This document shows, piece by piece, positions 14,129-40,178 of a stretch of 64,000 bases of DNA. A program made the position numbers and the translations under genes. This DNA is from Pontiella desulfatans. GTDB lineage: Bacteria; Verrucomicrobiota; Kiritimatiellia; Kiritimatiellales; Pontiellaceae. The stretch lies in contig NZ_CAAHFG010000003.1 in the NCBI RefSeq assembly GCF_900890425.1, positions 1,116,001-1,180,000 of the forward strand. The letters run 5' to 3'. The notes beneath the pieces are model-generated. The model did not search any database and was not told the origin of the DNA. It worked only from the letters and a program-made list of their open reading frames with translations. The stretch's first letter is position 1. Each line of letters begins with the position of its first letter.

Positions 14129-15244
14129 TTAGTGTATCAGCTCATCCACCGACGTGTAGTCGATGCCGAGGGCCTTGGCCACCGGGGCGTAGGTGCAGGC
14201 GCCCTTGTAAATATTCAGGCCCTTGCTGATTGCGGCGGACGATTTAACGGCTTCTTCCGCGCCCTGGTTGGCGAGGGCCAAGCCGTAGGGGAGCGTTGCG
14301 CTGGTCAGCGCGAGGGTCGAGGTTAGTGCAACCGCCCCGGGCATGTTCGCCACGCAGTAGTGGACGATTCCCTCCACTTCGAAGATGGGGTCGTCGTGGG
14401 TGGTGGGGTGGGTGGTTTCAACGCAACCGCCCTGGTCCACGGCGACATCGACGATGACCGCTCCGGGTTTCATCAGTTTCAGATGTTCCTTGCGGACGAG
14501 GTGCGGCGCCTTCGCCCCCGGGATCAACACACCGCCGATTACCAGATCGCTTTCCTTCAGCACCAGCTCGATGTTTTCCTCGTTGCTGTAGAGCGTGGTG
14601 ATACGGGTTTCGAAGATGTCGTCGAGATAGGCCAGCCGTTTGGCGCTGATGTCGAGGACGGTCACGTCGGCCCCGAGTCCGATCGCCATTTTGGCCGCGT
14701 TGCTTCCCACGATTCCGCCACCGAGGATCGCCACCTTGCCGCGGGGAACGCCCGGCACGCCGCCAAGCAGCACGCCGCGTCCGCCATAGGGCTTTTCGAG
14801 ATATTTCGCGCCCTCCTGCACGGAGAGGCGTCCGGCGATTTCGCTCATGGGGGTGAGGCAGGGGAGGTGGCGGTCGGCTTCCTCGATGGTTTCGTAGGCC
14901 ACGGCAATAATCTTCCGTTCCATGAGCGCCCGGGTTTGGGCCTCGTCGGCGGCGAGGTGGAGATAGGTGTAGAGGATTTGATCTTCATGGAAGAGGTCAT
15001 ACTCGCAGGCCTGCGGCTCTTTCACCTTAATGATCATGTCGCTGTTGTTGAACAGCGCCTGGGTGTCGGACTCAATGGCGGCGCCGCAGTCCAGATAGGC
15101 CTGGTCGGGAAAGCCCGCGTTGGCGCCCGCGCCAGCCTCGATCGATACTTCATGGCCCGCCCTGATATACGACTTCGCGTTCGCCGGTGTGAGGCCAACG
15201 CGATACTCGTGTTTCTTGATCTCCTTCGCCACTCCGATTCTCAT
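14129..15244 (-). CDS. ald: Alanine dehydrogenase
   Basis: A 371-residue cytoplasmic enzyme that oxidatively deaminates L-alanine to pyruvate with NAD+ (reversible). The start [20 protein letters not shown] is diagnostic. Further motifs are the substrate-binding Lys/Arg region IIKVKEPQ, the catalytic-His region [12 protein letters not shown], the Rossmann loop [17 protein letters not shown] and ADVTVLD for NAD binding, and [17 protein letters not shown]. The ATG at 15244 was chosen over a 29-codon upstream extension because it matches the universal family start and has GGAG upstream. It is followed by an Lrp-type regulator on the same strand. Together with the serine dehydratase at 29022 it suggests amino acids are used as pyruvate sources. 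Confidence 0.96.
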
Positions 15245-27637: not shown

Positions 27638-29005
27638 TCAACCCAGCTGGATGGCGGCGGGCATCTTGCCCTTGAGCGGGCGGGACTCGCCGAGCGTTGC
27701 GCGCAGGGCTTCGAGTTGTTGATGCAGCTCCTTTTTTCGGGCCGCATGTTTTGGATCGTCGATCAGGTTGTTAAGCTGGTGGGGATCCTGTTTCAGGTCA
27801 TACAGCACCCAGTCGCCCGCGAAGTGGTAGGCATAGGACCATTGCTTGGTGCGGATGCCGCGCCAATCGGTTCCCGGTCCGCCGCCTTGATGGACGTTGA
27901 AGAGGAAGGCGGCCTCCCGCTCCACATCGGACTCCCCCGTGAACGTGGCCGAATAATCGAGCCCCTGCACCTGCGGCGGAACCGGCAGCCCGCATAGGCC
28001 GAGCAGGGTCGGCATCACGTCCACCGACGAGACAATCCAGTCGCGCCGCTGTCCGGCCCGCACCTTGCGCGGATAGCGCAGGATGAACGGAATATGGATC
28101 GACTCTTCCCACGGCCGCTGTTTCAGCCGATGGCCCTGGGAGCCCAGCATGTCCCCGTGGTCGGAGGTGAAGACCAGGATCGTGTCTTCGGCAATGCCCG
28201 CTTCGTCCAGGGCATCGCGGATGCGGCCCACGCATTCGTCGAGGCTGGTGACCATGGCATAGTATGGAAGCAGGTTGGTGGTCTTGCCGCTGGGCACGTT
28301 CGGCCGGGCTGTCAGTGTTTTCCCCTGGTACATCGCGGTATGTTTTTCCGGCGCCTTGTACGGATTGTGCGGCGGCCCGAATGAAACGAACAGGCAGAAG
28401 GGCTCCCGCTTTTTCCGCTGGATGAATTCGAGGGCCAGGTCGGTCTGCACCTCCGGTTCCCAGCCGGGGACCACCACCGGTTCCGTGGCGTCGTTCAGCC
28501 AATATTGCGGCGCGGAATGCTGGTGCGAGCAATTGCGGACCGCCCAGAAATCCCAACCGCGCCGGTTGGTTGCATCCACGGGGTTGTTGCGGTTTCCGGC
28601 CAGGTGCCATTTGCCGATATAGCCCGTGGCATAGCCCCCTTGCCTCATCCGTTCGGCGATCACCGTTTCGTCGTCCGGCAGCCGGATATCGTTATGGATC
28701 ACGCCGGTCGTGTGGCCGTAGCGGCCGGTCATGAGGTGGGCGCGATAGGGCGTGCAGACGGGTTGGGCCGAAACCGCGTTCGTCACCAGCAGGCCCTCGC
28801 CGGCCAGGCGGTCCAGGTTCGGGGTAATCACCTGTGGGTTGCCCATGCAGCCCAGGGCGGATGCGCGCATCTGGTCCGCAAAGACAAACACGAGGTTGGG
28901 GCGCCGGCCCGGCGCCGGAGCCGGGAAGGCCTGGTTGGTTGCGAGGGCCGCGGGCATCGCCGCCGCCGCAACCTTTATGAATTGTTGCCGGGTGAGTGTT
29001 TTCAT
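27638..29005 (-). CDS. Secreted sulfatase, formylglycine-dependent (family S1)
   Basis: A 455-residue sulfatase. The N-terminus MKTLTRQQFIKVAAAAMPAALA resembles the substrate signals of this group (Tat-like TRQQFIK, though only one Arg). Metal ligand region LVFVFADQMRASALG; active site CTPYRAHLMTGR with Cys84; GKWHLAG; FTSDHGDMLGS with second-site Asp-His; and LKQRPWEESIHIP with a conserved Lys. Such FADQxR-type sulfatases often act on carbohydrates. The ATG at 29005 is preferred; the frame extends 23 codons further into the serine dehydratase gene. It starts 16 bases after the serine dehydratase stop, so the two are probably co-transcribed. It is the full-length relative of the relic at 24858. 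Confidence 0.94.
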   Translation of the reverse strand: MKTLTRQQFIKVAAAAMPAALATNQAFPAPAPGRRPNLVFVFADQMRASALGCMGNPQVITPNLDRLAGEGLLVTNAVSAQPVCTPYRAHLMTGRYGHTTGVIHNDIRLPDDETVIAERMRQGGYATGYIGKWHLAGNRNNPVDATNRRGWDFWAVRNCSHQHSAPQYWLNDATEPVVVPGWEPEVQTDLALEFIQRKKREPFCLFVSFGPPHNPYKAPEKHTAMYQGKTLTARPNVPSGKTTNLLPYYAMVTSLDECVGRIRDALDEAGIAEDTILVFTSDHGDMLGSQGHRLKQRPWEESIHIPFILRYPRKVRAGQRRDWIVSSVDVMPTLLGLCGLPVPPQVQGLDYSATFTGESDVEREAAFLFNVHQGGGPGTDWRGIRTKQWSYAYHFAGDWVLYDLKQDPHQLNNLIDDPKHAARKKELHQQLEALRATLGESRPLKGKMPAAIQLG

Positions 29006-29021
29006 ATTGGTTCCGTCCTGT

Positions 29022-30593
29022 TTACTGCCCGCAGCCTCCGCATCCGGAGCGGCGCGCCGATAGTTTTTCTTCAAGCACCTTGGCGGTCGGGGTGGTGGAG
29101 AGGCCGCCGAGGTTGGTGCAGCGCAGCTCGCGCGGCATCTGGTTTCCGACCCGCCGGGCGGTATCGATCACTTCGTCGAGCGGAATCACCGGATCGAACC
29201 CCGCCAAGGCCATGTTGGCGCAGGAGAGAGCGTTGCTTGCCGCAACCACGTTTTTGCCGAGGCACGGAACCTCCACCCGGTTGGCCACCGGATCGCAGAC
29301 CAGTCCGATCAGGTTCTGGAGCGCCATCGATGCCGCCGCCACGGCCTGTTGCAACGATCCGCCGGCCAGGGTAACCAATGCGGCGGCCGCCATGCTCGAC
29401 GCCGATCCGCCTTCCGCCTGGCAGCCGCCGACCTCCGCGGCGAACGTCCACCGGGTCGTGATGAAAACGCCAATCAAGCCGGCGGCCAGCAGCGCCTTCG
29501 CCATCGCCTCTTCGTCGAGCCCCATCGCTTCCGCCATCGCAACCACCGCACCCGGCAGTGCCGCGCAGGCGCCCGCCGTCGGCGCGGCGACAATGACGCC
29601 CATCGAACTCTTCACCTCCATCAACGCCGTCACATAGAGCACGATACGGTTCAATGCGCCGCCGTCGAGCAACGCGCCGCTGTGCATCATTTCATCGAAG
29701 CGACCACTCTGGTGGCCGAGGATGCGGTCGTTGTATTCCGTCCCGGCAATGCCTTCGGCAATCGAACGCCGAACGATCCGGACAATCCCGGCCATCTGGG
29801 CAATCACCTCGTCCTCCGTCAGGCCGCCGCGCGCCATTTCATAGTCCACGGCCAGCCGCCACAACGGGGTGCCGCGTCCGGCGTCATGTTCCAGCATTTC
29901 GGCGCAGGAGCCGAAGGGAACTGCGATGGCCTTGCGCGACATCACCGGCAGCACGGGGCTCAGCCGTTTAATGCAAAGCTCCTCCGGTAGTTCATCGCCA
30001 ATGAAAGTTGCCGCCTTGATTTCAACCAATCTCCGGTCGCCGGATTCATGGACGAGAATCTCGTCGGCCTCGAAATCCTTTAGCCGGGCGAGGATGCCTT
30101 CAACCGGCCCGTCGGCCCAGACCAGGGTTTCGCAGCAATCGCCCGTCATCGAAATGGCGAATCCGTCGAGATCGATCACCTCGATGCTGCCGCCGCCGGT
30201 TGAGATGGCGCGTAGGGAGCGGGTTTCCTTATCGCTCTTCAGGGTGAGCCGATAGGTGTTCGGGTGGGGGTCGCCCGCATCGACGGTTTCAATGCAAACG
30301 CCTACGCCGGCCTCGCGCAGCGCCTGCGCCGAAGTAGGCAGCCGTTCGTCGGCCGCATCCCATCCCAGCAGGCCGCCGAAGAGCCCCATGTCGGAGCCCT
30401 GCGTATCGTGCGTGGTCGGCAGCGAGCCGGCGCGGTCGAACTCCACCAGCACGTCGTTGAAGTCCCCGTCCATCAGCTCGCGCGCGAGGCGGCCGATGCG
30501 CAGGGCGGCGGCGCAGTGGGAACTCGAAGGGCCGCGCATCACCGGGCCGATCACATCATTGAATATGCTAACGATCATTCGGTGAGTATGCAT
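29022..30593 (-). CDS. sdaA: L-serine ammonia-lyase (serine dehydratase), iron-sulfur type, single chain
   Basis: 523 residues from the ATG at 30593 (an alternative ATG is at 30578). The N-terminal beta domain begins MIVSIFNDVIGPVMRGPSSSHCAAALRIG, matching the IGPSSSHT-type start of bacterial SdaA. The C-terminal alpha domain has APTAGACAALPGA, GGCQAEGGSASSMAAAALV and NLIGLVCDPVANRVEVPCLGKN with Cys residues suited to a [4Fe-4S] cluster. The enzyme converts L-serine to pyruvate and ammonia in the cytoplasm. An unusual C-terminal tail RRSGCGGCGQ adds two Cys. The open frame upstream of 30593 is intergenic repeat sequence. Confidence 0.93.
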   Translation of the reverse strand: MHTHRMIVSIFNDVIGPVMRGPSSSHCAAALRIGRLARELMDGDFNDVLVEFDRAGSLPTTHDTQGSDMGLFGGLLGWDAADERLPTSAQALREAGVGVCIETVDAGDPHPNTYRLTLKSDKETRSLRAISTGGGSIEVIDLDGFAISMTGDCCETLVWADGPVEGILARLKDFEADEILVHESGDRRLVEIKAATFIGDELPEELCIKRLSPVLPVMSRKAIAVPFGSCAEMLEHDAGRGTPLWRLAVDYEMARGGLTEDEVIAQMAGIVRIVRRSIAEGIAGTEYNDRILGHQSGRFDEMMHSGALLDGGALNRIVLYVTALMEVKSSMGVIVAAPTAGACAALPGAVVAMAEAMGLDEEAMAKALLAAGLIGVFITTRWTFAAEVGGCQAEGGSASSMAAAALVTLAGGSLQQAVAAASMALQNLIGLVCDPVANRVEVPCLGKNVVAASNALSCANMALAGFDPVIPLDEVIDTARRVGNQMPRELRCTNLGGLSTTPTAKVLEEKLSARRSGCGGCGQ

Positions 30594-33936: not shown

Positions 33937-34287
33937 ATGGCGAATATTCCTGGAAACGTCGAGTGGGTGGCGGAGTTGATCCCCAATCTGGATTCCCGCA
34001 TCGATCAGTTTGTGGTCGATACGGATGAAGTGGACGATGAGTTGGTCGAGGTCTTCATTGAGGAGATCCGCCGCCTGACGGGCGAGCTGCAGGACGGCAT
34101 CGCCCAAGCCGATCTGGAAATGGTGCGCATGGCGGCCCATTCCATCAAGGGCATGGGCGGAACCATGGGGCTGCCGGAAATCTCGGTGCTGGGGCTGGAG
34201 GTGGAAAACCTGGCCAAGGATGAACGCCTTGCCGATGCGAAGCCCATGGTCGATGCCATGGCCCGTTGGATGGCGACACTGGACTAG
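33937..34287 (+). CDS. HPt (histidine phosphotransfer) domain protein
   Basis: 116 residues. A four-helix HPt domain with the phospho-accepting His68 in MAAHSIKGMGGTMGLPEIS. There is no kinase or receiver domain attached, so it must relay phosphate between a hybrid sensor encoded elsewhere and a receiver. GGAGG lies 8 bases before the ATG. It is the first gene of an operon; the next gene, with a receiver domain, starts 2 bases after its stop and is the evident partner. In Pseudomonas aeruginosa the stand-alone HptB plays the same part in front of hsbR. Confidence 0.9.
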   Translation: MANIPGNVEWVAELIPNLDSRIDQFVVDTDEVDDELVEVFIEEIRRLTGELQDGIAQADLEMVRMAAHSIKGMGGTMGLPEISVLGLEVENLAKDERLADAKPMVDAMARWMATLD

Positions 34288-34289
34288 GC

Positions 34290-35930
34290 ATGATTTCGAC
34301 CGACCAAACCAGTCTTTCTGGAAAAACAACATCACGCCTCTTGCAAAACCTGTCCGGCCGGGTGCTGGTGGTGGACGACGAGTTGCCGAACCGCCTCTAT
34401 CTGCGCAAGCTGCTCGAGGCGCGCGGGTGCGAAGTGTTCGATGCCGATGACGGCCCGTCGGGGTTGTCGGTTGCTTTCCAGAAGACGCCGGATTTGATTC
34501 TGGTGGATGTCATGATGCCGCAGATGGATGGTTTCGAGCTGTGCGGCTTGTTGCGCGACGAACCGCGAACGGCGGATATCCCGGTCATCATGGTGACGGC
34601 GAAATCGAAAATCGAGGATATCGAGACCGGTTTCGAGCTTGGGGCGATGGACTATATCCGCAAGCCTTTCAACCCGCGCGAACTGGTGCTGCGCGTGGGC
34701 AATGCCCTGGCGCTGAAGAAGAGCAACGACGAACTCACCAAGTGGAACAACCGCGTTTCGCGGGATCTCGAACTGGCCGGCACCATCCAGCGTTCGCTCT
34801 TTTCCGACATCCCCCATTTCTCGCACCGCTTCGAGGTGCGCATAGCCTACCGTCCTTGCATGGATGTGGGCGGTGATGCGTTCGACATCATCCCGTTGCC
34901 GGACGGCAAGCATTGCGTCTATGTGGCCGACGTTTCGGGCCATGGGGTGGCGCCGGCGATGATTGCCTCGCTGCTGAAGGCGACCGCCAGCGAGATGATC
35001 CACCGCTATGCCGACCAGGGGCCCGCCGCCGTTTGCAACGCGTTGAACATGGTGATCCGCCGGCGCATCGACAACCCCTCCTATTTCGCCACCATGTTCA
35101 TGGCCATCCACGATCCGGAAACCCTCAAGTGGCGCTGCATGAACTGCGGGCACCCGAACCCGGTATTCATCCGCAACGGTGTTCCGGTTGATACGGCGGT
35201 TTTCAAGGTGCGCGGCGGAGCGCCGATCGGCTTTCCATTTGGGTCGGAACGGCCCTATGGCGAGAAGGACGAAATCGTGATCCGGGACGAGGGCAACTCC
35301 TATCTGCTGCTCTTCACCGACGGCTTGCTCGAGGCACGCCACCGGGCCACCGGCGAGGAGTGCGGGGAGTGCATGGCGAAGATCTATTCCGAGGTGGTGG
35401 CCCGGCCGGAGTTGTCGGACAAGGCGGCCGAACTGCTCGACCAGGTCGAGGCGCACCACTACGACATTGCGGGCGACGACTGCACCGCGATTTCCATCCA
35501 CATGCTCGATCCGCTCAAGATCGTGGTTGAGCAGACGGTGCCGCGGAATATTTATCTCGTGTCGGATACGGCAAAGCAGGCGGAATCGGCGGCGGTGTCG
35601 CAGGGCATCTCGCCGGAGACCGCCGCAATGCTGCGCCTGCTGGTGATGGAGCTGGGGGCGAACCTGGTGGACCATGGCGGCTTGGACGAGGACGATTCGT
35701 TCTGGCTCCAGCTGCGCATCGATGGGCGCGTGTGCCAGCTGGTGCTGCGTGACGAGGGGACCGAATGGGATTTGGAGGAGGCGTTGAACCGCGAGCTGGA
35801 CGAAGCCTACATGGGAGAGCGCGGTCGGGGCCTGGCCATCACCAACGCCATCACCGACCGCATCGAACGCTACCGGGTGCAGATGCAGAACCTGACCTAT
35901 TGCACCATCATCGACGGGGAGGAGGAATAG
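34290..35930 (+). CDS. Response regulator with PP2C (SpoIIE-type) phosphatase and anti-sigma-type HATPase kinase domains (HsbR-like)
   Basis: 546 residues in three parts. The receiver domain (about 22-140) has the acidic pair VVDDE, phospho-acceptor Asp73 in LILVDVMMP and Lys in YIRKPF. The PP2C/SpoIIE phosphatase (about 155-400) has metal-binding motifs VGGDAFD, YVADVSGHG, LLFTDGLLEAR and GDDCTAI. The HATPase_c domain (about 415-540) has the N box VMELGANLVDHG, RDEGTEWDL and GERGRGLAI. A protein with both phosphatase and kinase can switch a STAS partner between phospho states under receiver control. The order REC-PP2C-HATPase matches HsbR. Neighbours are HPt upstream and, two genes on, a STAS protein. 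It ends directly at the ATG of the sugar transferase. Confidence 0.92.
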   Translation: MISTDQTSLSGKTTSRLLQNLSGRVLVVDDELPNRLYLRKLLEARGCEVFDADDGPSGLSVAFQKTPDLILVDVMMPQMDGFELCGLLRDEPRTADIPVIMVTAKSKIEDIETGFELGAMDYIRKPFNPRELVLRVGNALALKKSNDELTKWNNRVSRDLELAGTIQRSLFSDIPHFSHRFEVRIAYRPCMDVGGDAFDIIPLPDGKHCVYVADVSGHGVAPAMIASLLKATASEMIHRYADQGPAAVCNALNMVIRRRIDNPSYFATMFMAIHDPETLKWRCMNCGHPNPVFIRNGVPVDTAVFKVRGGAPIGFPFGSERPYGEKDEIVIRDEGNSYLLLFTDGLLEARHRATGEECGECMAKIYSEVVARPELSDKAAELLDQVEAHHYDIAGDDCTAISIHMLDPLKIVVEQTVPRNIYLVSDTAKQAESAAVSQGISPETAAMLRLLVMELGANLVDHGGLDEDDSFWLQLRIDGRVCQLVLRDEGTEWDLEEALNRELDEAYMGERGRGLAITNAITDRIERYRVQMQNLTYCTIIDGEEE

Positions 35931-36665
35931 ATGGAACGACCGGTTTATAAGGCCAGGCGAGAAATGTTTGCCCGGATGGATATACCCGTCACCAAGGCGG
36001 ATGTTCAGATCCTGAAACTGAAGCAGCGCTTCCGTTTGGTTTTTTGGGAAGGCATGCTGCGCAGTCTGCTCGTGTTCAAGCGCATGATCGACATCGTAGC
36101 CAGCTTGGTCGCGCTGGTGGTGCTTTTCCCGTTGTTCCTGATGGCGGCGCTTTGCATCCTGGTCGAGGATGGCTTCCCGGTCATCTACACGCAGAAGCGC
36201 GTGGGTCTCAACGGTAAGGAGTTCCGGTTCCACAAGTTCCGCTCGATGGTCAATGGGGCGGAGGAGTTGAAATCGGAGCTGCGCAAGCAAAACGATCTAC
36301 AGGACGAAATCAATTTCAAGCTCAAGGACGATCCGCGCGTACTGCGTTGCGGCCGGTTCATGCGGCGATCCAGCATCGACGAGATCCCGCAGTTCTTCAA
36401 CGTGCTCGTGGGCGATCTCTCGCTGGTCGGGCCGCGCCCGCCCTTGCCGGAGGAGGTCAAGGCCTATTCGCTGGCCGACCGCAAGCGCCTGCACGTCAAG
36501 CCGGGCCTCACCTGCCTATGGCAGATCGGCGGCCGCTCCGACCTGCCGTTCGACCAGCAGGTCGGCCTGGATATGCAGTACATACAGAGCCAGAGCATCT
36601 TCAAGGATATTGTAATCATGCTGAAAACCATCCCCGCCGTGTTGTTCGGCCGCGGGGCTTATTAG
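35931..36665 (+). CDS. Polyprenyl-phosphate sugar-1-phosphate transferase (polysaccharide-priming)
   Basis: A 244-residue membrane enzyme of the bacterial sugar transferase (WcaJ/PglC-type) family. One hydrophobic helix at about residues 55-77 (IDIVASLVALVVLFPLFLMA) with the preceding KRMID, followed by catalytic motifs: GKEFRFHKFRSM, DPRVLRCGRFMRRSSIDEIPQFFNVL and LVGPRPPLP, then KPGLTCLWQIGGRS. It starts exopolysaccharide or glycan synthesis by moving a sugar phosphate onto undecaprenyl phosphate. Lacking the long N-terminal membrane region of WbaP, it is of the short form. The ATG follows the previous stop with no gap (TAGATG), showing tight coupling to the signalling proteins. Confidence 0.93.
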   Translation: MERPVYKARREMFARMDIPVTKADVQILKLKQRFRLVFWEGMLRSLLVFKRMIDIVASLVALVVLFPLFLMAALCILVEDGFPVIYTQKRVGLNGKEFRFHKFRSMVNGAEELKSELRKQNDLQDEINFKLKDDPRVLRCGRFMRRSSIDEIPQFFNVLVGDLSLVGPRPPLPEEVKAYSLADRKRLHVKPGLTCLWQIGGRSDLPFDQQVGLDMQYIQSQSIFKDIVIMLKTIPAVLFGRGAY

Positions 36666-36676
36666 GGAGAATTGAT

Positions 36677-37018
36677 ATGGTGGTAACTTGTACCAAACAA
36701 AACGGGATTGGCGTCGTGCAGGTCGACCAGGCGCTCACGGCCGCCACGGTGGATGCATTCCGCGACCAACTTGCCGGCTGGCAGGAAGCGGAAGGCGATG
36801 TGAAGGACTTCGTGCTCGACCTCGGGAAGGTCGATTTCATGGACTCGGCGGGATTGGGAACCCTGATCGCCGTGCTGAAGCGCGTGAGTGAAAAGGGGGG
36901 CGACATGAAGATTGCGGAACTCCAGAAAAAACCGCGCATGGTCTTCGAAATCACCCGGGCCTACAAGGTCTTCGAAATCTACGATACGGTGGATGACGCC
37001 CTGAAGGCGTTTGAATAG
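36677..37018 (+). CDS. STAS-domain anti-sigma factor antagonist (HsbA/SpoIIAA-like)
   Basis: 113 residues, a single STAS domain. The regulated Ser57 sits in the classical position DFMDSAGLGTLIAVLKR. The start MVVTCTKQNGIGVVQVDQALTAAT and end VFEIYDTVDDALKAF match anti-anti-sigma factors. GGGAGA precedes the ATG at 36677. The REC-PP2C-HATPase protein two genes upstream provides both a phosphatase and a kinase for this serine. What the unphosphorylated or phosphorylated form binds is unknown; an anti-sigma factor is not in the window, so the target could also be the glycan machinery encoded on either side. Confidence 0.92.
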   Translation: MVVTCTKQNGIGVVQVDQALTAATVDAFRDQLAGWQEAEGDVKDFVLDLGKVDFMDSAGLGTLIAVLKRVSEKGGDMKIAELQKKPRMVFEITRAYKVFEIYDTVDDALKAFE

Positions 37019-37036
37019 TTTCCGTCTCCCGCTCCG

Positions 37037-38440
37037 ATGATTGCCGTGCTCAATACCTCAACTGCATGTGCCTGGGCAGAACCCTTCGGGGATGTGCCCT
37101 GGCCCATGCTGCCGGTTGCCAACCGTCCCCTGCTGGACTATTGGCTGGAGGCGTGCACCGACCAGGGCATCAAGTCCGTCCAGTTGATCCTGGGGGGCGA
37201 CGAGGCCAAGGCGATCGAGGATTTCGTGCGGAACGGCGACCGGTGGAATGTGGACGTGCAGTATATCTTTGCGCGCCCCAGCGAATCGCCGGCCGGATAC
37301 CTGCGTTCCATTTCCGCGCTCTGCCGCGATGGCCTGTTCTACCTCGGCCATCCGTTTTTCATGCGGCGCAGGCAGGCGTTTAGTCCATCCGGATTCAAAG
37401 CGCTCGATGCTTGCCGACATGACTTCCACGGCGAAATCCATTTCCTGTTTTCTTCAACCGGTAACGGTGTGGAGGCCCTGCTGGAGGGGCAACCCGGTTC
37501 CGGCCATGGGCTCGAGCAGATCCATCTCCACCCCTTTGCCATCGATTCCGCGGCCGCCTATTTCGACCTGAACATGAAAATGATCGCCGGCGAATTCTCC
37601 CGCTATGTCACGGCGGGCTTTTCCGCAAACGATGGCAGTTCGATCGGCTACAACGTCCGGACGCCGCCTTCGAGCCATCTCGTGGCCCCCATCATGGTGG
37701 GCGACGACTGCCGCTTCGGCGCAATGACCACCGTGGGGGCCAATGCCGTGGTGGGCAACCATGTGATTGTCGATGCCCACAGCGAGCTGGCCGACTGCCT
37801 TGTCCTCGACGACACCTACATTGGCCGCAACCTGGAAATCCGCAACAAGATCGTGGCCGGCAACCGGGTGATCGACCCCAGCGACGGCACCATGGTGCAA
37901 ATCGACGACTCCTGGCTGATTGCGCGAAACCGGACCGAGACGCGGACGGAAGACCTCCTCCGCTACGTCATCCTCTGGTTCGTGGCCCTTGGTTTGGCTC
38001 TGGTGCAGGTTGTTCCGTTCTGCATCCTGTATCCCATCGTGAAGCTCATCCGTGTCGGGCGGTTCAGCCTGGAATCGTTCCACGATCCCCGCACCGGCTA
38101 CATCAAGCTTCCGGTTTTCCGCAAGGTCCTAAACAAGAAATCGGTGGCCTATCGCCTGTTCCGCAGCTTTTCGCTCGATCGCTTCCCCTGGATCCTGCTG
38201 GTGTTGCGTGGGCGGCTCTTTCTCTGCGGCCAGCCCCCCATGCGCCATCCGGAAGACGGCGAGATCGTCAAGCAGCTGCGCCAATATTATCCCGGCGTAT
38301 TCTGCTACCAGGACTATAACAAGGAATCCGATCGCCTGATCGATTCACTCTGGTACGCCCATATCCGGTCGCTCTATGAAGACCTCAAGATCCTGATCAA
38401 AGCCCTCTTAACCCGTTTCCTCTCGGCCGGTCGGCAATAA
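37037..38440 (+). CDS. Degenerate nucleotidyltransferase with left-handed beta-helix and membrane/glycosyltransferase-like tail
   Basis: 467 residues. Residues 1-215 follow the sugar-nucleotidyltransferase fold (VPWPMLPVANRPLLDYWLEAC, GIKSVQLILGG), but the nucleotide-binding G-x-G-T-R signature is replaced by LNTSTACAWAEPFG, so pyrophosphorylase activity is doubtful. Residues 215-300 have hexapeptide-type repeats (VGANAVVGNHVIVDAHSELAD, IGRNLEIRNKIVAGNRV). A hydrophobic helix at about 312-335 (LRYVILWFVALGLALVQVVPF) is followed by a tail resembling the end of sugar transferases (LVLRGRLFLCGQPPMRHPEDGEIVKQLRQ). It closes the operon 18 bases after the STAS gene. It may be a regulatory partner or scaffold for the priming transferase. 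Confidence 0.75.
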   Translation: MIAVLNTSTACAWAEPFGDVPWPMLPVANRPLLDYWLEACTDQGIKSVQLILGGDEAKAIEDFVRNGDRWNVDVQYIFARPSESPAGYLRSISALCRDGLFYLGHPFFMRRRQAFSPSGFKALDACRHDFHGEIHFLFSSTGNGVEALLEGQPGSGHGLEQIHLHPFAIDSAAAYFDLNMKMIAGEFSRYVTAGFSANDGSSIGYNVRTPPSSHLVAPIMVGDDCRFGAMTTVGANAVVGNHVIVDAHSELADCLVLDDTYIGRNLEIRNKIVAGNRVIDPSDGTMVQIDDSWLIARNRTETRTEDLLRYVILWFVALGLALVQVVPFCILYPIVKLIRVGRFSLESFHDPRTGYIKLPVFRKVLNKKSVAYRLFRSFSLDRFPWILLVLRGRLFLCGQPPMRHPEDGEIVKQLRQYYPGVFCYQDYNKESDRLIDSLWYAHIRSLYEDLKILIKALLTRFLSAGRQ

Positions 38441-38468: not shown

Positions 38469-40178
38469 ATGCCCAAACAGTGGAACATCCATCCAACCGA
38501 CCTGCCGCTCGCCGAGTCCATCGCCGCCCAGGCCCGGCTCCCGCTTCCGATTGCGCGTGTGCTGGTGCAACGCGGGTTCCACGATGCGGACGGGGTTGGC
38601 GCGTTCATGAATCCCCGCCTGTCCGGGCTGTCCGATCCCTTCCTGCTGCCCGACATGGAAAAGGCGGCCGTCCGGCTGTGGGCGGCGATCGACGGGCAGG
38701 AATCCATTACCGTATTCGGCGACTACGATGTGGACGGCGTCACCTCCTCGGCGCTGCTCACCCGTATTCTCACCGCCCTTGGGGGGCGGGTGCGGGCGTT
38801 CATTCCCGACCGGCTCGATGAAGGCTACGGCCTTTCGCAGGATGCCCTCGAACGCTGCCTCGCCGAACATGGTTCAACGGTCGTGGTTTCCGTCGATTGC
38901 GGCGTGAATTCGGTCGGGAGCGTGGCCTACGCCCAGCAACTCGGCATCGATGTCATCGTTACCGACCACCACGAGCCGGAGGAAACAACGGCCCCGGCCT
39001 ATGCCTTGATCAACCCCAAGCTGGGCGATCAACCCGATCTCGAAAACCTGTCGGGGGTCGGGGTGGCCTTCAAGTTGGCCCATGCGCTCGTCAAGCTTGG
39101 GCGGGGGCAGGGGAAGCCTGCGGCCATCCAGCTCGAACTGCGAAACTATCTTGATATTGTCGCGCTCGGCACCGTGGCCGACATTGTTCCGCTGGTGGGC
39201 GAAAACCGCATCCTCGTGCGCCACGGCCTGGCCCAGCTCGGGTGGACCCGATGGGTCGGGCTCCAGGCCCTCAAAGACGTCGCCGGCGTGAAGGGGGAGG
39301 CCGATACCTTCCAACTCGGCTTCCAGCTCGCGCCGCGCATCAATGCCGCCGGCCGGATTGGCCAGCCGATGCAGGCCCTGCAACTGCTGGTGACCAACGA
39401 TGCCGGCGAAGCGCAGCGCATCGCCAAGCTGCTCGACGACACCAACGCCGAGCGGCGGCGCATCGAGCGCGAAATGGCCGACGAGGCCTTTGCGGAGATC
39501 GATGAATATTTTTCCGCCGGGAAAAACTTTGGACTCGTCGTTGCCAGGGAGGGGTGGCATCCGGGGGTGGTCGGCATTGTTGCCTCGCGCGTGGCCCGCC
39601 ACTACAACCGCCCCGCCATCATCATGGGAATCGAGGAGGATGGCTCCGCGCGCGGCTCGTGCCGCAGCATCGACGAATACAACCTGCTCGAAGGCTTGCT
39701 GGCCTGCGAGGTATGCCTGTCCAAATTCGGCGGCCACAAAATGGCGGCCGGGCTCGAAGTGAAACCCGGTGAACTGGAGGCCTTCAAGGCCGCCTTCAAT
39801 GCCGCCGTGGCCGCAACCCTCGGCGAAACCGACCTTTCGCCCGTGCTGCACATCGATGCGGAGGTGGCGCCCGAAGAGGTGGATTGGGATTTCCTGGAAC
39901 AGCTGAAGCGGCTCTATCCCTTCGGGCAGGAAAACCCCGAACCGGTCTGGGCCGTGCGGCGGCTGCGGGTGTCGGGCAGCCCCCGCGTGGTGGGGCAAAA
40001 CCACCTGAAACTCTCGCTGGTGGCCGCCGGGGAAACCTTCGATGCCATCGCCTTCAACTATCCGCTGGAAAACCTGCCCGCCGGCGAGGTCGATGTGGCC
40101 TTCACGCTCAAGGAAAACCAGTGGATGGGCAACTCCAGCCTGCAGTTGCAGGTTCAGGACATCCGGGCGTCCGGATAG
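38469..40178 (+). CDS. recJ: Single-stranded-DNA-specific exonuclease RecJ
   Basis: 569 residues, usual RecJ length. DHH-family motifs: FGDYDVDGVTSSALL (motif I), VSVDCG, VTDHHEP (DHH motif III), ALGTVADIVPL, and the DHHA1 domain with SRVARHYNRPAIIM, GSARGSCRSI and KFGGHKMAAG. The C-terminal OB fold (RLRVSGSPRVVGQNHLKLSL) is present. It digests 5' single-stranded DNA in recombination and mismatch repair. I start at the ATG at 38469; the open frame extends only to a TTG at 38454. It is downstream of the polysaccharide operon by 28 bases but functionally unrelated. Confidence 0.95.
   Translation: MPKQWNIHPTDLPLAESIAAQARLPLPIARVLVQRGFHDADGVGAFMNPRLSGLSDPFLLPDMEKAAVRLWAAIDGQESITVFGDYDVDGVTSSALLTRILTALGGRVRAFIPDRLDEGYGLSQDALERCLAEHGSTVVVSVDCGVNSVGSVAYAQQLGIDVIVTDHHEPEETTAPAYALINPKLGDQPDLENLSGVGVAFKLAHALVKLGRGQGKPAAIQLELRNYLDIVALGTVADIVPLVGENRILVRHGLAQLGWTRWVGLQALKDVAGVKGEADTFQLGFQLAPRINAAGRIGQPMQALQLLVTNDAGEAQRIAKLLDDTNAERRRIEREMADEAFAEIDEYFSAGKNFGLVVAREGWHPGVVGIVASRVARHYNRPAIIMGIEEDGSARGSCRSIDEYNLLEGLLACEVCLSKFGGHKMAAGLEVKPGELEAFKAAFNAAVAATLGETDLSPVLHIDAEVAPEEVDWDFLEQLKRLYPFGQENPEPVWAVRRLRVSGSPRVVGQNHLKLSLVAAGETFDAIAFNYPLENLPAGEVDVAFTLKENQWMGNSSLQLQVQDIRASG

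Follow-up and report, generated by a model that had tools for sequence, protein, structure and literature searches.

The window, the whole 64,000-nucleotide stretch of Pontiella desulfatans DNA analyzed here, corresponds to bases 1116001-1180000 of contig C3 in a genome of 8.66 Mb. Five genes lie in tandem on its plus strand, followed by a recJ-like gene:

33937..34287, plus strand: HPt phosphotransfer protein of 116 aa (Pfam Hpt, 1.2e-13; motif AAHSIKGMGG)
34290..35930, plus strand: REC-SpoIIE/PP2C-HATPase switch protein of 546 aa, with an HsbR-like domain order (Pfam)
35931..36665, plus strand: small monotopic phosphoglycosyl transferase, PGT (Bac_transf, 4.7e-64, residues 50-238)
36677..37018, plus strand: stand-alone STAS protein with Ser57 (Pfam STAS, 2.2e-22)
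37037..38440, plus strand: predicted double pseudoenzyme, called NTL (Pfam, structure models, and motif loss)
38469..40178, plus strand: recJ-like gene directly 3′ of the NTL gene, which it adjoins in 9/9 same-genus loci and in 0/31 others

In the ORF calls, the intergenic gaps among the five genes are 2, 0, 11, and 18 bases, as a sequence-only reading of this DNA had stated, and the Pfam matches bear out the domain composition given there. The switch protein matched Response_reg (1.3e-29), SpoIIE (4.6e-27), and HATPase_c_2 (2.6e-12). The PGT carries an N-terminal extension of about 45 aa ahead of the Bac_transf domain, and the D-x12-P helix motif of monotopic PGTs (PF02397) is also present in this third gene. 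The fifth gene matched NTP_transferase (3.6e-5) and Hexapep (1.9e-7), and a partial Bac_transf match (1.1e-5) narrowly missed the cut-off. The recJ-like gene is probably co-transcribed with the module, in the genus only. Promoter and terminator scans gave a result no better than shuffled sequence. Upstream of the module, on the minus strand, a sulfatase-like ORF with a CTPYR motif (read by eye) lies at positions 27638-29074 of the window.

To follow the module in relatives, the phylum was searched with the fifth protein as the query. Of 388 genomes, 151 gave a match, and in 26 of these it was strong (E < 1e-70) and covered nearly the full length. Forty neighborhoods were extracted, mostly with 7 to 10 kb per side, and the window proteins were used as queries against them. 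Since these loci were picked by NTL, the NTL counts are not independent, whereas those of the other genes are. The order HPt, REC-PP2C-HATPase, PGT, STAS, NTL is kept across the class Kiritimatiellia. All five genes were present in the same genus without exception (9/9 loci) and in nearly every locus at the order and class levels; PGT, STAS, and NTL were present in each of the 24 loci that make up the genus, order, and class levels. Within the extracted stretches, which are all that the tally of flanking genes sees, 10 of the 11 flanking genes of the window occurred in 0/40 loci; recJ was the sole exception, in the same genus only. A contig profile scan with a closer ten-row NTL set gave Pontiella and other Kiritimatiellales as the nearest named relatives. 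The named loci of this second collection, the genomes of which partly overlap the first, showed the same gene order. Thus, the five genes are a conserved island amid flank turnover. Chance grouping was ruled out, because the five genes recur in 9/9 same-genus loci, while 10 of the 11 flanking genes recur nowhere. Loss of the gene order in relatives, which the sequence-only reading had named as evidence against itself, was looked for, and the order was found to be conserved instead.

The HPt, the REC-PP2C-HATPase protein, and the stand-alone STAS protein are encoded together. Among 20 homologues of the switch protein, residues D29, K125, D196, D214, G217-G219, D344-G345, D396-D397, E454, N458, D488, and R513-G514 are invariant, and D73 is nearly invariant; the REC Asp is missing from a few distant homologues. 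D56-S57 of the STAS protein are invariant in the PVC homologues and in the Methylococcaceae homologues. The REC Asp, the PP2C and HATPase motifs, and the STAS Ser are therefore intact, their columns being invariant or nearly so (20 and 26 homologues). This conservation of catalytic residues supports the proposed phosphorelay coupled to a partner switch. No kinase gene adjoins the HPt gene in Pontiella. In several relatives of the class, a large REC-containing (hybrid-kinase-like) ORF lies immediately 5′ of it. An HPt-like gene was also seen between the switch protein and the PGT at L064:8289-8636, as well as in L062 and L070, with the motif HAMKGASANIG or HALKGASANIG as read by eye from the translation.

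In the window PGT family, the D-E dyad, the K of KFRSM, and the R of GPRP were found in 51/51 homologues. The fifth protein differs on each of these points, and its architecture was divided as follows:

Residues 1-189: pseudo-nucleotidyltransferase
Residues about 200-298: left-handed beta-helix
Residues 305-338: hydrophobic helix
Residues 339-467: pseudo-PGT

The AlphaFold2 model of the full NTL had a pLDDT of 85. Residues 1-294 matched tlr0611 best (Z 25.4), followed by eIF2B, GMPPA/GMPPB, and others. The C-terminal 169 residues modeled alone (pLDDT 92) matched WbaP (Z 15.0) and PglC (Z 12.3), with all other structures scoring far lower. The fold of the first 294 residues is common to GMPPA/GMPPB and eIF2B gamma/epsilon, nucleotidyltransferase folds that serve as regulatory subunits; none of these is known to have a PGT domain. 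The C-terminal domain shares the fold of the monotopic PGTs WbaP and PglC, but it has lost the catalytic Glu, the KFRSM Lys, and most of the GPRP Arg. In the joint alignment, the dyad Glu was found in 51/51 PGTs and in 0/63 NTLs, the KFRSM Lys was rare or absent in the NTLs, and the GPRP Arg was retained in 3/63. The C-terminal domain of gene 5 thus lacks the Asp-Glu dyad and the substrate-binding Lys/Arg of an active PGT. Likewise, a GxGxR-type nucleotide-binding loop was found in the first 25 residues of 0/63 NTLs. An active nucleotidyltransferase or an active PGT was set aside for the fifth gene, because the dyad Glu and the nucleotide-binding loop are absent in 63/63. Judged by its sequence, the fifth protein is a double pseudoenzyme. 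The earlier description of it as a degenerate nucleotidyltransferase was incomplete, as the beta-helix and the pseudo-PGT had not been mentioned. In a tree of PGT-like domains, all NTL C-termini, from PVC and Methylococcaceae alike, formed one clade with a support of 0.85. That NTL is a double pseudoenzyme in every case fits a function in regulation or as a scaffold.

The same parts were found in other lineages. In Methylococcaceae (L102-L105 and L108, of which L103 and L104 end at contig ends), the order is PGT, NTL, stand-alone HATPase, STAS, REC-PP2C. L104 and L108 have an additional REC-containing ORF between STAS and REC-PP2C, and the L105 module is preceded by GT2, GT2, beta-helix, and WecG-type genes. 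A run of GT2, three GT4, WecG-type, PGT, and NTL genes in one PVC family is headed by STAS and the switch protein; another family has STAS-PGT-NTL, next a gene for a 695 aa protein, and then a Wza-type exporter. In Pontiella, the remaining glycan genes are unlinked to the module, and the window links PGT and NTL only.

Contact between the switch and the glycan proteins cannot be proven from linkage alone, and recJ is also retained beside the module within the genus, although nothing evident ties it to the module in function. Loose co-regulation or shared inheritance of neighboring genes, in which the switch and the glycan proteins never touch, would account for the linkage. However, the order of the module persists where every other flank vanishes, and the same partners stand in a different order in another phylum. 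We consider this explanation very improbable.

Only 7/369 sampled gammaproteobacteria gave a long NTL match. In the gammaproteobacterial loci L133, L134, and L136, NTL occurs with or without a linked PGT and with no recognized partner-switch gene nearby, so NTL has a role independent of the switch, which weighs against the reading favored below. Across the loci surveyed, NTL usually adjoins PGT, and the switch appears as an added layer in most loci, not in all. A tblastn search of plasmids with NTL returned mostly ordinary nucleotidyltransferases. On plasmid p1 of Azospirillum argentinense (L115:10720-12882), a PGT adjoins an NTL-like protein truncated after the beta-helix, and no STAS gene was found near this pair.

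STAS domains were also found fused to a glycosyltransferase: WecG, the transferase of the following step, bears them in Kiritimatiellia, whereas elsewhere it has a degenerate PGT domain. At C3:336148-337608 of the same genome (L158:14149-15612), about 0.8 Mb from the module, a 487 aa protein carries one WecG and two STAS domains. Its gene sits between a SecA-like ORF and a hemL-like ORF, both recognized by eye from their first residues. We surveyed 53 WecG-bearing ORFs from the extracted loci, some being one gene fetched twice. They carry a C-terminal STAS, or an N-terminal degenerate PGT-like segment, or neither, but never both. One Methylococcaceae ORF (L103:7923-9926) consists of a degenerate PGT, WecG, and a complete PGT. 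At L105:7998-9203 and L065:7460-8791, WecG-type proteins carry a degenerate PGT-like domain on the N-terminal side. In the tree of PGT-like domains, two kinds of WecG pseudo-PGT stand on long branches. By a manual count among the matches listed, uncorrected for kinship, WecG-STAS occurs in about 24/26 strong-NTL genomes (some by weak or partial STAS matches) and in 13 of the other 362. No literature on WecG with a STAS domain was found in a search that covered few subscription journals. The WecG-STAS fusions provide a separate line of evidence for STAS domains working with glycan enzymes in these lineages. Together with the gene order kept in relatives, they support glycan production as the likely output of the switch, as had been proposed from the window.

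A protein on/off switch of this kind usually frees gene-control factors. The sequence-only reading had argued for direct control partly because no anti-sigma factor was present, and this point needs to be qualified: HATPase_c_2 of the switch protein is itself of the anti-sigma/kinase type, and HsbR, which shares its domain order, sequesters RpoS (PMC6482189). An unlinked sigma factor therefore has to be considered. As with HsbR and CrsR, which act on RpoS, the HATPase would sequester this factor and the STAS protein would free it, the glycan genes being merely co-transcribed with the switch or being its targets. The stand-alone RsbW-like HATPase of the Methylococcaceae relatives also fits such a transcriptional switch. 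However, a phmmer scan of the window and related loci, about 1.5 Mb in all, with RpoS and FliA of E. coli as queries detected no RpoS/FliA-like sigma gene, although ECF or other divergent sigma factors could escape these two queries. Moreover, transcriptional control leaves unexplained why PGT and NTL are interleaved with the switch genes in a conserved way and why WecG bears fused STAS domains. We regard it as rather unlikely.

In HptB-HsbR-HsbA of Pseudomonas aeruginosa, as in the module, an HPt leads to a REC-PP2C-HATPase protein and then to a STAS protein encoded on its own, the serine of which is conserved. The likeness is architectural. The known outputs of that system are sigma factors and a diguanylate cyclase, whereas the neighbors in the module are a PGT and a pseudo-PGT. 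HsbA binds the enzyme HsbD depending on Ser56 phosphorylation (PMC5085249), and it binds FlgM as well (PMC6482189, PMC5085249). Following the HsbA-HsbD precedent, the target of the STAS protein might be an enzyme encoded elsewhere, for example a diguanylate cyclase, with an effect on polysaccharide via c-di-GMP. Nevertheless, no cyclase gene was identified among the annotated neighbors in the relatives' loci, where PGT and NTL are the constant neighbors, and we give this idea very little weight.

The domain order of SypE is kinase-REC-PP2C, and this order was not found in the switch protein, which is REC-PP2C-HATPase. As in the relatives' loci, SypE-SypA of the Vibrio fischeri syp cluster combine a STAS protein and a kinase/phosphatase in a polysaccharide locus (PMC8256260, PMC12369376, PMC4517449). 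The module differs from them in having an HPt and in being interleaved with a PGT and the double pseudoenzyme. SypE-SypA act below transcription (PMC12369376), and the direct targets of SypA and HmpV, STAS proteins of polysaccharide loci, are recorded as unknown (PMC8256260). In Myxococcus xanthus, EpsW~P directly activates the PGT EpsZ; this control is post-translational and apparently by direct contact (PMC12802240). In the module, a signaling protein would likewise control an initiating PGT, but the components differ: M. xanthus uses a response regulator of one domain (EpsW) and a large monoPGT (EpsZ), whereas the module has a small PGT with a pseudo-PGT partner and a STAS protein.

In these marine bacteria, the conserved operon of a switch, a PGT, and an apparently dead copy of the PGT points to direct gating of sugar-coat production by the switch. 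Based on the conserved linkage, the WecG-STAS fusions, the HptB-HsbR-HsbA-like architecture, the HsbA-HsbD and EpsW-EpsZ precedents, and the SypA and HmpV targets recorded as unknown, we favor direct control of glycan initiation, and it seems reasonably likely that the target of the partner switch is the glycan-initiation complex, acted on after translation. Unlinked hybrid kinases would load the HPt, which would then phosphorylate the receiver of the REC-PP2C-HATPase protein. This protein would set the phosphorylation of Ser57 in STAS, the HATPase adding the phosphate and the PP2C removing it. In one of its two forms, most likely the one without phosphate (as with SypA), STAS would dock on the membrane pair of active PGT and NTL, and thereby permit or stimulate the first sugar-phosphate transfer onto the lipid carrier. 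Since WecG in this lineage bears its own STAS domains, the switch may also couple step 2 (WecG) to step 1.

More tentatively, the STAS proteins could be phospho-controlled docking modules for lipid-linked glycan initiation, through which the switch recruits or releases PGT, NTL, and WecG and thereby gates steps 1 and 2 jointly. It is conceivable, with the same reserve, that WecG is reached via its fused STAS domains or, in other lineages, via a fused pseudo-PGT domain. If so, SypA and HmpV could act on targets of this kind, and partner switching would govern glycan-assembly enzymes, beyond transcription. The operon and the natural STAS-glycosyltransferase fusions provide a short list of candidate partners for STAS proteins.

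Searches of the same genome gave 18 HATPase_c_2 matches and 8 STAS matches. Most of the HATPase matches sit in frames of histidine-kinase length, as judged by length only. Four full PGTs are encoded in the genome, and that of the window alone has a STAS gene nearby. A second SpoIIE-phosphatase and STAS pair, with weak STAS similarity, was found at G000:C4:764555-766710 (L148). Two short ORFs of the genome (L152:7192-7482 and 14480-14770), the first 25 residues of which are identical (VRDFAEEITWATFKMVATTQNIVRI), lie close to a pair of its large PGT genes.
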